From assembly GCA_903858965.1 (NCBI GenBank), contig CAIOKY010000149.1, positions 1 to 64,000 of the forward strand: a DNA stretch of 64,000 nt, in the 5' to 3' direction. Source of the stretch: an uncultured Nitrosomonadales bacterium (GTDB taxonomy: Bacteria > Pseudomonadota > Gammaproteobacteria > Burkholderiales > Gallionellaceae). The translations under genes were made by a program, and so were the position numbers. The notes under the pieces were generated by a model, which saw nothing but the letters and a program-made list of their open reading frames with translations, had not been told where the DNA came from and made no database searches. Below are positions 2-7,728 of the stretch, piece after piece (position 1 is the first letter of the stretch; every line of letters begins with the position of its first letter).

Positions 2-229
2 CTGCCCAAGCTTGCCGCGCTGCGCGCCGGCTTGCGCCAGCAGGTGTTGGCCTCTCCCCTGTTCGATGCACCGCGCTTTGCGCGAAACTTCGAGGATGCC
101 CTGTGGGGAATGTGGCAACACTTTCAAGATCAACAAGAGACTTCCGCACAGAATATAGTTTTGCGGGAGCAAGGCTGTTTAAAGACGCAAGGAAACGCTA
201 CTGGAGAATCCAAAAATCAAATTCCATAG
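2..229 (+). CDS. C-terminal fragment (5' truncated by window edge) of a TPR/SPINDLY-type O-GlcNAc transferase-like protein
   Basis: Open frame runs in from the window edge: LPKLAALRAGLRQQVLASPLFDAPRFARNFEDALWGMWQ. The 'R..L..SPLFDA.RFAR.FE.AL..MW' pattern is typical of the C-terminus of bacterial SPINDLY/OGT-like proteins. Confidence 0.6.
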   Translation: MPKLAALRAGLRQQVLASPLFDAPRFARNFEDALWGMWQHFQDQQETSAQNIVLREQGCLKTQGNATGESKNQIP

Positions 230-617: not shown

Positions 618-1793
618 ATGAAACCATTACGAACAGCTCAGGACCTTGCCATCAACGGTGCGCTGCCAGCCTTTGAGCAGCCATTACATGTTGGCCGTCC
701 CAACATGGGTAGCCGTGAAGCATTCATTAAACATGTGAGCGACATTTTCGAACGTCGCTGGCTGAGCAACAACGGTCCGATGGTGCAAGAACTCGAACAA
801 CGCGTAGCGGATCTCCACGGCGTCAAACATTGCGTAGCAATGTGTAACGGCACCGTAGCACTGGAGATCGCAATCCGCGCGCTGGGCCTGGAAGGTGAAG
901 TCATCGTGCCGTCCTATACCTTTATCGCCACAGCTCATGCCTTGCACTGGCAAGCCATTACCCCTGTATTTGCCGATATTGATCCACATACCCATAATCT
1001 TGATCCTGCTGCAGTACGGCGCATGATTACGCCGCGTACCACCGGTATCATCGGCGTCCATCTGTGGGGGCGCGGTGCACCAGTGGATGAATTACAAATG
1101 ATCGCCGACGAGCATGGCCTGAAACTGATGTTCGATGCGGCACACGCTTTTGGCTGTTCCTACAAAGGCAAGATGATAGGCAACTTCGGCTCCTGCGAAG
1201 TGCTGAGTTTCCATGCCACGAAATTCTTTAATACCTTCGAAGGCGGTGCGGTCGTGACTAACGATGACGCGCTGGCTGAAGCGATGCGCCTGATGCGCAA
1301 CTTCGGCTTTTCCGGTTTTGATAGAGTCATTCATCCAGGTACCAATGGTAAAATGATCGAGGTCGCCGCAGCCATGGGGCTGGTTAACTTGAAAGACATC
1401 GAAAGCGTCATCGCAGTAAATCGCCATAACCATGAAGCCTACCACAAAGGATTATCAGGGATACCTGGCATCAGCTTGCTGACCTATGACGATGCCGAGC
1501 ACAACAATTACCAATATGTCGTGATGGAGGTCGGTGACAAATGCCCGGTTTCCAGAGACTGGATTATTGAAGCATTGCACGCGGAAAACATCCTGGCGCG
1601 AAAATATTTCTGGCCCGGCTGCCACAATATGCAACCTTATCGCGAGTTATATCCGCACGCGGGACTGCTGTTGCCCAATACGCAACACGTGGCTGATCGT
1701 ATAGTGGTTCTGCCTACAGGAACGACAATGGATACAGAGATCGTCCATTCTGTGACTTCAGTGATCAGTGTACTGATAAATGATAGGCTATAG
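618..1793 (+). CDS. DegT/DnrJ/EryC1 family PLP-dependent aminotransferase (sugar aminotransferase)
   Basis: 391 aa; contains VPSYTFIATAHAL, FDAAHAFG and SFHATKFFNTFEGGAVVTND (PLP lysine region). Confidence 0.9.
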   Translation: MKPLRTAQDLAINGALPAFEQPLHVGRPNMGSREAFIKHVSDIFERRWLSNNGPMVQELEQRVADLHGVKHCVAMCNGTVALEIAIRALGLEGEVIVPSYTFIATAHALHWQAITPVFADIDPHTHNLDPAAVRRMITPRTTGIIGVHLWGRGAPVDELQMIADEHGLKLMFDAAHAFGCSYKGKMIGNFGSCEVLSFHATKFFNTFEGGAVVTNDDALAEAMRLMRNFGFSGFDRVIHPGTNGKMIEVAAAMGLVNLKDIESVIAVNRHNHEAYHKGLSGIPGISLLTYDDAEHNNYQYVVMEVGDKCPVSRDWIIEALHAENILARKYFWPGCHNMQPYRELYPHAGLLLPNTQHVADRIVVLPTGTTMDTEIVHSVTSVISVLINDRL

Positions 1794-1821
1794 TCCAGCT
1801 ACTCCTAGATGTGAAAAAACG

Positions 1822-3120
1822 ATGATGCACAAGCGAAATGTCCTGGTTTTTCCGGCAGGTACTGAAATCGGGCTCGAGATTAATAACGCGCTTAAACATT
1901 GCAAGGAAGTTTCTTTGTTTGGTGCCGGGCAAAATATCCCCAACCATGCAAGATTTGCTTTTCCGGAATACCACGTGCTGCCCAGCATCCACCAAAGCGA
2001 TTGGCTGCCATCACTGATTGCATTGGTGACAAAGCTGAAGATTGACTACATATTTCCGGCATACGACGATGTAATCGTCGCGCTCAGCCAAGCGGCAAAT
2101 CAGATTCCTGCCACCATAATCACTTCCCCTACGCTTAGCTGTGAAATTACCCGTTCGAAGACAGCGACCTACCGTGCTCTTGCCAGGAGAATTCGGGTAC
2201 CACATGTGTATGACTCTGCGAGTGAGGTTACCGGTTACCCTGTGCTGGTAAAACCCGATCGTGGCCAAGGTTCACAGGGTGTAAAAGTAATTAATACGGA
2301 AGCTGAACTAAGCCAGGCAATGGGCGAAGTGTGTGATCCAATCATCTGTGAATACCTGCCGGGTGAAGAATTTACTGTGGACTGTTTTTCTGATCGGGAA
2401 CGCGGATTGCTGTTCGCCGGGGCCAGAAGCCGCCGCCGGATCCGCAATGGTATTGCCGTCAACACAACTACCGAGCAACTCCCGCAAGTATGGAATATCG
2501 CCGATGTCATCGGGCGTACATTGAGTCTTCGCGGGGCCTGGTTCTTCCAACTCAAACGCGCAGTGGATGGAGAATTGACTTTGCTTGAAGTCGCGCCGCG
2601 CATCGCCGGAGCGATGGCTGCACACCGCGTGATTGGCGTGAACTTCCCGTTACTCAGTATTTTTGAGCATGAGCGAGTGAACATCAAATTATTGACCAAC
2701 CCCGGACAAATCGAACTCGATCGGGCGCTATCGAATCGTTACCGGTACCAACTGGATTTCGGAACTGCCTACATAGATCTGGACGACACGCTGATACTGA
2801 ACGGACAGGTTAATTTGCAGGTGGTAAAATTCATCTATCAATGCATCAATCAGGGCAAGCAGATAAAGCTGATCACGCGTCACCAATCTGACCTTGGCGA
2901 AACGCTGCGCAAGCACCGGCTGCTGAATTTGTTTGACGATATCCTTCACATCACGGAAGGCACCACAAAATCCAGCCTGATTACTGAACGAAACGCCATT
3001 TTCATAGACGACAGTTTCGCAGAGCGCATGGAGGTATCGCAACACTGTGGCATATCCACGTTTGATGGCAGTATGCTGGAGGTGCTGACCGAACGTGTGG
3101 AATTTACCAATGGAGAGTAA
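1822..3120 (+). CDS. ATP-grasp (CarB-like) domain protein with C-terminal HAD-like domain
   Basis: ORF 1780-3120, likely start ATG 1822/1825. ATP-grasp features: YPVLVKPDRGQGSQGVKV, CEYLPGEEFTVDCFSD, LLEVAPRIAGAMA. HAD motifs: YIDLDDTL, KLITRH, AIFIDDSFAER. Confidence 0.8.
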   Translation: MMHKRNVLVFPAGTEIGLEINNALKHCKEVSLFGAGQNIPNHARFAFPEYHVLPSIHQSDWLPSLIALVTKLKIDYIFPAYDDVIVALSQAANQIPATIITSPTLSCEITRSKTATYRALARRIRVPHVYDSASEVTGYPVLVKPDRGQGSQGVKVINTEAELSQAMGEVCDPIICEYLPGEEFTVDCFSDRERGLLFAGARSRRRIRNGIAVNTTTEQLPQVWNIADVIGRTLSLRGAWFFQLKRAVDGELTLLEVAPRIAGAMAAHRVIGVNFPLLSIFEHERVNIKLLTNPGQIELDRALSNRYRYQLDFGTAYIDLDDTLILNGQVNLQVVKFIYQCINQGKQIKLITRHQSDLGETLRKHRLLNLFDDILHITEGTTKSSLITERNAIFIDDSFAERMEVSQHCGISTFDGSMLEVLTERVEFTNGE

Positions 3121-3872
3121 TGATGGCCAGCATGCATGACGAAAAGGCATTTCTTGAAAGTGTAATTCATACCTATGTCACCAGCGAGAGCCCGCAGGAC
3201 CGCCTTATAAAATCGCTCGCTGTACGTACCTTCAAGCCATTCATCCACCCGGATGGGTGCGGGCTCGAGTTTGGTTGCTGTGACGGATATATGACCTCAC
3301 TGATTGTGCCGTTGTGCGGTCACCTGACTGTGGTTGATGGTTCCCAGACATTCATCAGTATGGCACGCCAGCGTGTACCGCCGGAAGTCGAATTCGAACA
3401 TGCGCTATTCGAGGAATTCAATCCGGGCAAAAAATTCGATTACATATTTGCCACCTATGTGCTTGAGCATGTTTCTGATGCCGTTGGATTCCTGAAGCAT
3501 GCGCGCAGCCTATTGAGCGATCGCGGACTGCTGTTTATCGTCGTGCCGAACGCTCGCGCAATGTCCAGACAAATAGCGCGCCACATGGGATTGATCGATG
3601 ACCTCTTTGCGCTGACTCAAAACGACATAAATCACGGGCATCGTCGCGTTTACGACAGGGTATCCTTAAACAAGGACCTCGACGATGCCGGACTTCAACA
3701 GGTTAGTCAGGGTGGACTGTTGCTTAAACTACTGGCTGACTTCCAGATGGACAAGATGGTTGAGGCTGGGATCATTGCTGACCCGCAAATCGAAGGGCTT
3801 TACAAAATGGGACTCGAATATCCGGATTTTGCAGGTAGCCTGTTTGCGATATGTAGTTCCATTTCCAGTTGA
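3120..3872 (+). CDS. Class I SAM-dependent methyltransferase
   Basis: GLEFGCCDGYMTSLIVPLCGHLTVVDGS (motif I), FDYIFATYVLEHVSDAVGFLKHARSLL; start overlaps the stop of the upstream gene. Confidence 0.85.
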   Translation: MMASMHDEKAFLESVIHTYVTSESPQDRLIKSLAVRTFKPFIHPDGCGLEFGCCDGYMTSLIVPLCGHLTVVDGSQTFISMARQRVPPEVEFEHALFEEFNPGKKFDYIFATYVLEHVSDAVGFLKHARSLLSDRGLLFIVVPNARAMSRQIARHMGLIDDLFALTQNDINHGHRRVYDRVSLNKDLDDAGLQQVSQGGLLLKLLADFQMDKMVEAGIIADPQIEGLYKMGLEYPDFAGSLFAICSSISS

Positions 3873-4893: not shown

Positions 4894-5241
4894 ATGACAA
4901 ACAAAATATTTTCTTTGCCGAAATATTCAAGACTCCGAAATGCCCTATTAGGGCTGACTGTGTCTTTTATATTGGTATTTAACCCTGACTCTTCTCAGGC
5001 AGCTGATACGGTTAAAGGCGGACAGCTATACGCGCTGCATTGCGCTTTGTGTCATGGGGTATCCGGCATCAGCGTCATGCCCAACGCCCCTAACCTTGCT
5101 AAAAACGAAGGCTTGTTGCAGCCTGATCTATCAGTTCTGGCTTCCATAAAGAACGGGAAGGATGCCATGCCAGCTTTCAATGGCATATTAAGCGACCAAG
5201 ATATCCTGGATGTGATCGTTTATCTGCGTACCTTGAATTGA
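4894..5241 (+). CDS. Monoheme class I cytochrome c, exported
   Basis: Signal peptide plus GGQLYALHCALCHGVSG (CXXCH) and distal Met region 'GKDAMPAFNGILSDQDILDVIVYLRTL'. Confidence 0.85.
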   Translation: MTNKIFSLPKYSRLRNALLGLTVSFILVFNPDSSQAADTVKGGQLYALHCALCHGVSGISVMPNAPNLAKNEGLLQPDLSVLASIKNGKDAMPAFNGILSDQDILDVIVYLRTLN

Positions 5242-5308: not shown

Positions 5309-6379
5309 ATGCGCATCTCGTTTACCCTGATTTTTGTTGTTTGCTTGGCCTGCTGGAGTTCCACCCATGCCGAGACGGCGCCGTCCGGGGTTGCGCTTCC
5401 CCGAGTGCTTGAGTCATTTCAGGTAGGCGAGAATACTATCGTTCGCGCACTTACGGTAGAACCCGCTAAAAACACCCTGTGGGTGGGCACTTCTGTTGGT
5501 GTGCTTGAGATAGACCTTGCCTCATACAACGTGCGCAACACTTTTACCCGCGACAGTGGCCTGGCGAACGAGTACGTATTTTCGATCGGCGTGGACAAGG
5601 ACGGTTACAAGTGGTTTGGAACCAACGCCGGGGGAGCTTCGCGCTACCGGGATGGTCAATGGAAAACATATTTTCCGATGCATGGACTCGCCGACTACTG
5701 GGTCTACTCTTTTGCCAGCCAGCACAACGGGGATCTATGGATAGGCACTTGGGCGGGAGTAAACAAAGTTGACTTGCACACCATGCAGTTCACCACCTAT
5801 GTCAAAGAATTGATCAACGAGTGGGTCTATGGCATCGCTGTGGATAAACAAGATCGTGTATGGTTCGGCACGGAAGCCGGCATTTCGATGTTTGACGGCA
5901 AGACTTGGCGCTCATGGAGTCACAAGGACGGGTTGGGTGCACCCAACAAGAATCATCTTGCTCCAAGTCCGAACACCGGCCTCGGGACACGCTCCCGCCA
6001 CGACCTGAGCATGTTATCGGGAGACGGAGGGCTTACTTACAACCCCAGCTATGTATTTGCCCTCCAGATCACACCAGACCAGTCCATCTGGGCCGCCACT
6101 TGGGGTGGCGGGGTCAGCCGCTTCGATGGCACACACTGGCGTAACTTCACTACCCGCGACGGCTTGGCAGGAGATATCGTTTACAGCATCGCCCAGGAAC
6201 CCAGCGGCATATTGTGGTTCGGCACCAACGGCGGGGTCAGCCGCTATGACGGCAAAAGCTGGCACAATTATTATAAAAAAACAGGGTTGCTGGAAGATAA
6301 CGTTTATGCGGTGGCGGTATCGCCGAATGGTGACATCTGGGCCGGCTCACGTCGCGGCGTGACTCGCATCGGTCAATAA
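5309..6379 (+). CDS. Secreted beta-propeller protein with two-component-regulator-propeller (Reg_prop-like) repeats
   Basis: Signal peptide; repeats such as 'GLANEYVFSIGVDKDGYKWFGTNAGGASRYRDGQW' and 'GLAGDIVYSIAQEPSGILWFGTNGGVSRYDGKSW'. Confidence 0.85.
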   Translation: MRISFTLIFVVCLACWSSTHAETAPSGVALPRVLESFQVGENTIVRALTVEPAKNTLWVGTSVGVLEIDLASYNVRNTFTRDSGLANEYVFSIGVDKDGYKWFGTNAGGASRYRDGQWKTYFPMHGLADYWVYSFASQHNGDLWIGTWAGVNKVDLHTMQFTTYVKELINEWVYGIAVDKQDRVWFGTEAGISMFDGKTWRSWSHKDGLGAPNKNHLAPSPNTGLGTRSRHDLSMLSGDGGLTYNPSYVFALQITPDQSIWAATWGGGVSRFDGTHWRNFTTRDGLAGDIVYSIAQEPSGILWFGTNGGVSRYDGKSWHNYYKKTGLLEDNVYAVAVSPNGDIWAGSRRGVTRIGQ

Positions 6380-6435
6380 CCCCGCTTGCTTAAATTCATT
6401 GGATTCGTATCGGAAATTCTTAGGAGATTATTGTT

Positions 6436-7728
6436 ATGCAACTGAACATCAAATCGGTAACAGCAATTGTGGTAGTCACGGCCATTGCGACCGCCGGGAT
6501 TTATGCCTTATACACAAAACAAGCGGCGACATCTCCATCAAAGGCTGGCGCGCTTCAACCCGGAGCGACACTACCTCCTGGCCATCCCCCGATGAATCCG
6601 CCAAGTCAAGCTGCAGATAATGGGGCATCACCGGGCCAGCCACCGGCGAATTCGGAAAGCCCACAGAGTGGCCGCTCGGGGACGGTTCCAGAAGACCCTA
6701 GTACCAAGTACACGCATTTCCGTACCGGTAACAGCAATGTCAAATCCATTTTTATTGATGGTAAAGTCGTCTGGGTAGCCACTACAGGCGGGGTAATTCG
6801 CTACAACACCGGCACTGACGAGTTCCGCGTGTTTGACGTGACCAATGGCAGCGGGCTGCTTTCCAATGGCGTGTTCTATATCGGCAAACTGGATGGGCGC
6901 ATCGCTGTAGGTACTTATGGTGGTGGAATGTCCTTATACAATGAGTCTACCGAGAAGTGGGAGAATACCAATGTCCCGGACGGGCTGGCAGATGCTTTCG
7001 TTTACAAGGTCATGAAGGCCTCCAATGGAGACATCTGGATCGCTACCTGGTCTGGTGCCAATCGCATTCGTGGCGGGGACCTGAAAGATCGTTCCAAATG
7101 GGATGTTTACACGGTAGAAAATACCAAAGGCGGGTTACCCAACGACTGGGTCTACAGTCTGGCCGAAGGCAAGGACGGCGAAATGTGGTTTGCCACTGAA
7201 GGGGGGCCGGCGCGTTTCAAGGATGGCAAGTGGGAACACTGGAAGGTAGGTGCACCATTTGAAAAAATCAAGAACGATCCAAAATATGGCATCGACCCCG
7301 CAAAACTGTCCGAACACCATGCTCAACAGGCCAGGGAAATGGGCTTGCAAGGCATCAGTGGTGCGGGCGCCTACAATCCCAACTATATCGTATCGTTGAA
7401 TATAGACCCTGATGGAACGGTATGGTGCGGCACCTGGGGCGGCGGCTTGGCACGCTTCGACGGAAAACAATGGAGCAACTACACCATGTCCGACGGATTG
7501 CCGGGCAACCTCGTATTCATGCTGCACCGTGATGATGCTTCCGGGCAATTGTGGATCGGGACCAACAACGGCATCGCTCTTCTGGATGGCAAGGAGATAA
7601 AAGGAAAGAAACTTAAAGTATTGACCACCAACGACGGTTTATACGCCAATATCGTGTTCTCCATGGCGACCGCGCAGGACGGCAGCAAGTGGTTGGGCAG
7701 CTTTGGTGGTGTCACACATCTGAAGTAG
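6436..7728 (+). CDS. Membrane-anchored/exported beta-propeller protein (Reg_prop-like), paralogue of the upstream gene
   Basis: N-terminal hydrophobic segment, Pro/Gly/Ser-rich linker, then propeller repeats 'GTWGGGLARFDGKQWSNYTMSDGLPGNLVFML'. Confidence 0.85.
   Translation: MQLNIKSVTAIVVVTAIATAGIYALYTKQAATSPSKAGALQPGATLPPGHPPMNPPSQAADNGASPGQPPANSESPQSGRSGTVPEDPSTKYTHFRTGNSNVKSIFIDGKVVWVATTGGVIRYNTGTDEFRVFDVTNGSGLLSNGVFYIGKLDGRIAVGTYGGGMSLYNESTEKWENTNVPDGLADAFVYKVMKASNGDIWIATWSGANRIRGGDLKDRSKWDVYTVENTKGGLPNDWVYSLAEGKDGEMWFATEGGPARFKDGKWEHWKVGAPFEKIKNDPKYGIDPAKLSEHHAQQAREMGLQGISGAGAYNPNYIVSLNIDPDGTVWCGTWGGGLARFDGKQWSNYTMSDGLPGNLVFMLHRDDASGQLWIGTNNGIALLDGKEIKGKKLKVLTTNDGLYANIVFSMATAQDGSKWLGSFGGVTHLK

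Follow-up and report, generated by a model that had tools for sequence, protein, structure and literature searches.

The flagellin of Pseudomonas syringae carries an N-acylated O-methylviosamine that is made with VioA and VioM (PMC3927599), and a peptidylamido sugar on the flagellin of C. difficile requires an ATP-grasp gene located beside an aminotransferase gene (PMC5207246). In Neisseria, the ATP-grasp/phosphoglycosyltransferase PglB2 makes a glyceramido sugar (PMC11130364; PMC6959607), and in the wall teichoic acid of B. subtilis glyceric acid is amide-linked to 4-amino-4,6-dideoxyglucose (viosamine, Qui4N) (PMC9912281). Our study concerns a three-gene cassette at positions 618–3872 of a 64 000-nucleotide stretch of DNA (the window), position 1 of which is also position 1 of contig C149 (CAIOKY010000149.1) of an uncultured Nitrosomonadales bacterium. 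The cassette encodes an aminotransferase, an ATP-grasp ligase fused to a HAD domain, and a methyltransferase, and on balance it probably makes an N-acylated, O-methylated Qui4N. This reading draws on gene order, folds, catalytic residues, the pairing of the fusion with DegT genes, the exchange of two aminotransferase types beside it and the ATP-grasp/HAD neighbours of distant relatives, all computed here. The features concerned are as follows.

618..1793, + strand: DegT/DnrJ/EryC1 sugar-nucleotide aminotransferase, DesI-like, 391 aa (PF01041, TIGR04427, 2PO3)
1825..3120, + strand: ATP-grasp::HAD fusion, 431 aa; alternative starts at 1780 and 1822
1825..2721, + strand: ATP-grasp ligase part of the fusion, PRK12767-like (Pfam, 2pn1, invariant residues)
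2722..3117, + strand: C-terminal HAD domain of the fusion, without a cap insert (motifs, fold)
3120..3872, + strand: class I S-adenosylmethionine (SAM)-dependent methyltransferase, 250 aa (PF13489)
2..229, + strand: C-terminal end of a TPR/OGT (SPINDLY-like) glycosyltransferase, frame 2, translation LPKLAALRAGLRQQVLASPLFDAPRFARNFEDALWGMWQHF

The viosamine island of P. syringae (vioA, vioM, vioT, vioB, vioR, vioS and acp) has in common with the cassette and its relatives a deoxythymidine diphosphate (dTDP)-viosamine aminotransferase, acylation of the sugar at its 4-amino group, O-methylation and an association with flagellin. However, its 3-hydroxybutanoyl chain comes from acyl-carrier enzymes and an acyltransferase, an ATP-grasp enzyme is not among the seven genes listed, and the window aminotransferase is DesI-like and ~40 % identical to E. 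coli VioA. The C. difficile type B genes CDR20291_0244–0247 likewise pair an ATP-grasp gene with one for a sugar aminotransferase; they belong to an operon for a flagellin glycan, in which an amino sugar bears an amide-linked cap, but the sugar is a 3-amino sugar (Fuc3N), the cap is peptide-like and contains taurine, and a HAD fusion has not been described there. PglB2, whose product is 4-glyceramido-2-acetamido-2,4,6-trideoxyhexose, is an ATP-grasp enzyme whose substrate, a 4-amino sugar, comes from an aminotransferase reaction; its sugar, however, is linked to uridine diphosphate and derived from N-acetylhexosamine, is built on a lipid carrier and is destined for type IV pili, and its ATP-grasp domain is joined to a phosphoglycosyltransferase, whereas the partner in the window fusion is a HAD domain. 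In Shewanella oneidensis, sfmDE are a methyltransferase and an ATP-grasp gene within an operon for flagellin modification, although this operon belongs to a NeuB-like nonulosonate pathway and neither DegT nor a HAD fusion is described in it. The ‘carbamoyl phosphate synthase-like’ proteins of the 2pn1/PRK12767 type share the ATP-grasp fold and sequence with the fusion, but they are without a HAD domain and of unknown function, and their cut-offs are not reached by the window protein (best of the NCBIfam PRK12767 models NF009402–NF009406, 100.5 bits against an equivalog cut-off of 218).

All three open reading frames (ORFs) of the cassette are intact at the coordinates listed above. The fusion frame is open from 1780 (1780–3120, 446 aa), and the 3' end of the DegT gene overlaps this longest ORF; a start at either 1822 or 1825 agrees with the N-termini of homologues. 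The fusion stop and the methyltransferase start overlap in the sequence TAATG at 3118–3122. The sequence-only reading of this DNA had named a sugar-type DegT aminotransferase, an ATP-grasp domain fused to a complete HAD-like domain and a class I methyltransferase, and each of these identifications was upheld: the first by PF01041 (E=8e-109), the second by Pfam, an AlphaFold2 model, fold searches and catalytic residues, and the third by Methyltransf_23 (PF13489, E=6e-20). The nearest solved structure to the methyltransferase is 2P7H, whose function is unknown.

The AlphaFold2 model of the fusion, built on an alignment of 73 sequences, shows two domains, with a predicted local distance difference test score of 95.7 and a predicted template-modelling score of 0.93. 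The ATP-grasp part scored above the Pfam cut-offs (in brackets) for PF15632 at 60.3 bits (29.1), PF02655 at 48.2 bits (23.2) and PF13535 at 32.9 bits (27). Its residues K143 (2251–2253), E255 (2587–2589) and R259 are invariant among 79 sequences, and its top match is 2pn1, both by sequence profile and by fold. The HAD part carries the motifs DLDDT, the T/S of LITRH, K382 and the DD of FIDDS, with D318 at 2776–2778, D320 at 2782–2784, T351 at 2875–2877, K382 at 2968–2970 and D395 at 3007–3009. Pfam HAD models gave no significant match in 18 members of the fusion family, the window HAD part included, and a sequence-profile search of the PDB with the HAD domain found nothing. Modelled alone and searched with Foldseek, this part matched KDN-9-phosphate phosphatase, KdsC/YrbI and MDP-1 (E ~1e-4 to 1e-3, template-modelling score ~0.55–0.64), and as modelled it has the fold of HAD phosphatases. 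Since the catalytic residues never vary (D318, D320, K382 and D395 in 79/79 sequences, and T or S at 351 in 79/79), an active phosphatase is to be expected.

The sugar was narrowed down from the aminotransferases found beside the fusion. For the window enzyme, the best NCBIfam model is TIGR04427 (DesI; 493 bits), which is named dTDP-4-dehydro-6-deoxyglucose aminotransferase, and the best solved structure is 2PO3 (E=5e-117 vs 5e-55 for the next). DesI makes dTDP-4-amino-4,6-dideoxyglucose, which is the same product as that of VioA. The partner aminotransferases fall into two groups: a DesI-like group (~18 loci, including the window) and a VioA group (~57 loci), the nearest members of which are 64–68 % identical to the VioA of E. 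coli O116, annotated as dTDP-4-amino-4,6-dideoxy-D-glucose aminotransferase. The window DegT is no VioA orthologue, at 39–40 % identity to E. coli VioA. On the tree of the fusion the partner type switches 6 times by parsimony, and at least 4 of these switches are forced by well-supported branches. The window fusion lies in a clade of 26 rows (99 % by the Shimodaira–Hasegawa-like approximate likelihood-ratio test) in which 24 have a VioA-type partner and the remaining two, the window among them, a DesI-type one. Compared with its relative at locus L007, the window is 64 % identical in the fusion and 71 % in the methyltransferase (38 % to the one adjoining the fusion at L006, a locus of Cupriavidus metallidurans CH34), but only 41 % in the aminotransferase, which is a different one. 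As DesI-like and VioA enzymes have been exchanged repeatedly and share one product, this product is the likely substrate of the fusion. Ketoisomerases of the FdtA/QdtA type are required for 3-amino sugars. None was detected in the 82 loci surveyed (one query sequence, E ≤1e-3), and this absence argues for a 4-amino sugar. RmlA and RmlB scored over their cut-offs elsewhere in the genome of the window organism. Judged from these sequence comparisons, we have moderate confidence that the fusion acts on dTDP-Qui4N, where the substrate had previously been left as unknown. Gene swaps such as that between DesI-like and VioA partners offer a way of reading a substrate.

The 82 loci comprised the best 80 of 279 fusion relatives found in a single scan across genomes of bacteria and archaea, together with C. 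metallidurans and the window, and genes were counted by tblastn. In 78/82 loci a DegT gene was found no more than 6 kb from the fusion, and in 54 the two were neighbours on the same strand, <300 bp apart, whereas a methyltransferase of the window type lay within 6 kb in 14 and one of another type in 18. DegT and the window-type methyltransferase occurred together in 12/82, so the conserved unit is the pair of DegT and fusion, with methylation optional; the fixed triad that had been anticipated did not hold. Since DegT genes are common in sugar islands, their closeness by itself would carry little weight; that the two genes are immediate neighbours in different phyla carries more. Genes for O-antigen or capsule export were present in 35 loci, flagellar genes in 14, Rml genes in 25 and OGT genes in 9.

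The fusion had been singled out as the unusual part of the cassette, and a search of close relatives seemed to agree, with a full-length copy in 1 of 198 genomes besides the window. This patchiness did not translate into rarity in the wider scan, where the 80 relatives that were kept align with almost the full length of the query and are spread over Proteobacteria, Bacteroidota, Firmicutes, Verrucomicrobia, Planctomycetes, Patescibacteria and others. Phage records gave one weak partial match, and a search of plasmids for stand-alone copies of the fused HAD domain returned only two C. metallidurans fusions. A literature search found no paper that describes an ATP-grasp::HAD fusion or names its substrate. 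The fusion is a widespread but uncharacterized family.

We propose that the DesI-like aminotransferase would convert dTDP-4-keto-6-deoxyglucose, supplied by the RmlA and RmlB encoded elsewhere, to dTDP-Qui4N. The ATP-grasp part would then activate a carboxylic acid with ATP and form an amide bond with the 4-amino group, the favoured acid being a phosphorylated common metabolite and 3-phosphoglycerate the first choice. The fused HAD part would strip the phosphate to give N-glyceroyl-Qui4N, the methyltransferase would O-methylate the sugar, and a glycosyltransferase, plausibly the upstream OGT-like protein, would attach it to protein. If both ligase and phosphatase are needed, the simplest chemistry is that a phosphorylated acid is ligated and then dephosphorylated. 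We infer the acid, the order of the steps, the methylated position and the acceptor. That the ligase acts on dTDP-Qui4N is the firmer claim, while glycerate as the acid, taken alone and argued by analogy, is possible yet doubtful. The same order of caution applies to the broader proposal, advanced tentatively, which sees in the fusion a single-chain amino-sugar glyceroyl synthetase and in ATP-grasp plus phosphatase a general acylation module used on several amino sugars in bacteria and archaea. In outline, the earlier suggestion that an amino sugar is made, joined to an acid at its amine and methylated for the decoration of proteins or surface glycans is supported by the DegT pairing and by the settings of the fusion loci, which lie in flagellin-glycosylation or O-antigen/capsule export islands. 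Should the proposal be correct, a glycolytic intermediate would be used directly to decorate glycans, and the travelling of phosphatase genes with ATP-grasp genes in sugar loci would be explained. An uncharacterized enzyme family spanning many phyla would also gain a concrete substrate and a testable mechanism, which would aid the prediction of N-acyl groups on O-antigens, capsules and flagellins from sequence.

A separate HAD gene comes directly after distant relatives of the ATP-grasp part in Priestia, Methylorubrum, Haloarcula, Rhizobium, Ensifer and the genus designated g58 (five genomes), with a DegT gene nearby in several cases. The Methylorubrum locus carries FdtA/QdtA, indicating a 3-amino sugar. 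In a Halobaculum plasmid (L138:3848-5580) the ATP-grasp gene is followed, at the place of the HAD gene, by a gene with a PHP domain, a phosphoesterase-type fold, which is possibly a case of one phosphatase replaced by another. In the five g58 genomes (L128:6368-8027, L129, L130) the ATP-grasp and HAD genes overlap but are separate, and the gene order is that of a pgl locus: flippase, glycosyltransferases, phosphoglycosyltransferase, ATP-grasp, HAD, formyltransferase-like gene, DegT and dehydratase. In having HAD directly after ATP-grasp these loci resemble the window fusion, although their HAD is a separate, capped protein. At L128 a run of eight A lies at the phosphoglycosyltransferase/ATP-grasp junction, and neisserial pglB2 is known, from a title cited in PMC6959607, for a simple sequence repeat. 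By analogy, the g58 loci and this poly-A run fit a pglB2-type allele with such a repeat.

Several findings weigh against the proposed pathway. The window aminotransferase, at 493 bits, missed the DesI equivalog cut-off of TIGR04427 (650 bits), and the fused family includes no enzyme with a known substrate. The g58 ATP-grasp protein is only ~26 % identical, and the glycerate assignment proceeds by analogy to the distantly related PglB2. In the split loci the HAD is a capped HAD_2 protein that gives a profile match over 43 columns only and is no orthologue of the fused domain, and a HAD gene was not found by the stand-alone ATP-grasp gene at L003–L005, L119, L122, L126, L127 (short flanks) or L137. 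Lastly, genes for the final acceptor are not visible: upstream lies the end of the contig, and the genome yielded no flagellar machinery.

The pathway could be the same with an amino acid (serine via phosphoserine, alanine or glycine) or another plain acid as the acyl donor, giving an aminoacyl-Qui4N, with the HAD part acting on phosphoserine or having a side activity. The C. difficile type B flagellin lends this some weight: its ATP-grasp gene neighbours a gene for an FdtB-like aminotransferase, and its terminal sugar bears taurine, alanine and glycine. So does the presence of the L-amino-acid ligase 3vot among the fold matches. However, an invariant phosphatase would have no obvious task if the amino acid were unphosphorylated, and the published account consulted for the C. 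difficile locus mentions no HAD gene. We regard this alternative as unlikely.

It is improbable that the two domains serve unrelated steps, in which ATP-grasp would acylate the sugar and the HAD part dephosphorylate a different intermediate (a sugar phosphate, a lipid phosphate or a byproduct). The closest HAD folds are indeed phosphatases of KDN-9-phosphate and KDO-8-phosphate, which act in separate sugar-phosphate steps, but a HAD gene follows a stand-alone ATP-grasp gene in several phyla, among bacteria as well as archaea, with different amino sugars, one of them a 3-amino sugar. This recurrence across amino-sugar pathways connects the HAD with the ligase reaction and not with a particular sugar.

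An acceptor is suggested by the fusion loci in which flagellin or FliD genes adjoin the cassette (L007/L010, L011, L014, L028, L029, L042 and others). Flagellar genes, the mark of a flagellin-glycosylation island, occur in 14 of the 82 loci, but searches for FlhA, FliD and FliG were empty in the 95 %-complete genome of the window organism, with positive controls. The assembly may lack the flagellar region, or else the OGT-like enzyme has another acceptor that the cassette now serves. Persistence of the cassette as a remnant of a flagellin-glycosylation island after loss of the flagellum, with no current glycan product, would accord with these empty searches, with the relatives that carry the cassette beside flagellin and FliD, and with the lack of a glycan-related gene directly after the methyltransferase in the window, but it is very improbable given three open frames with catalytic residues retained, an aminotransferase that was swapped for an intact one of another family rather than lost, and an OGT gene that still adjoins in a genome holding many OGT/TPR proteins.

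The cassette had been placed directly downstream of an OGT-like C-terminus. This end is real, with 74 % identity over 46 aa (frame 2, bases 2–229) to a TPR/OGT protein of locus L009, but the gene is incomplete, cut by the start of the contig, and a non-coding gap of 388 bases separates it from the DegT gene. Other TPR/OGT proteins of the genome are encoded at C155:13000-36000 (L107, L108), on C16 and C91, and at C149:32449-33216; some begin with a SEC-C-like CxCGSGxKxKxCC motif, and one gene of the set adjoins a sugar epimerase and an FkbM-like methyltransferase. The single flagellin-like gene of the genome (C134:4524-5321, L109) lies among unrelated genes.

A TagD-like cytidylyltransferase gene was seen near the fusion in 10 loci, namely L031, L034, L041, L049, L052 and L073 of enterobacteria, L019, L020 and L022 of Pseudomonas and a gamma-proteobacterium, and L076; the enterobacterial copies sit among flagellar-type genes, which suggests glycerol phosphate in the same glycan. 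At L007:11934-14139, and also in L010, L013 and L016, the methyltransferase is followed by a radical SAM protein and then by a second protein with a methyltransferase-like part; this pair precedes the flagellins in L007/L010 and is absent after the methyltransferase of the window. An anti-phage role was considered and rejected, the PADLOC match being limited to the methyltransferase region (54 bits, against mad2). Further along the window, a small cytochrome c-like gene (4894–5241) precedes two adjoining repeat-protein genes (5309–7728) that resemble the beta-propellers of two-component sensors.

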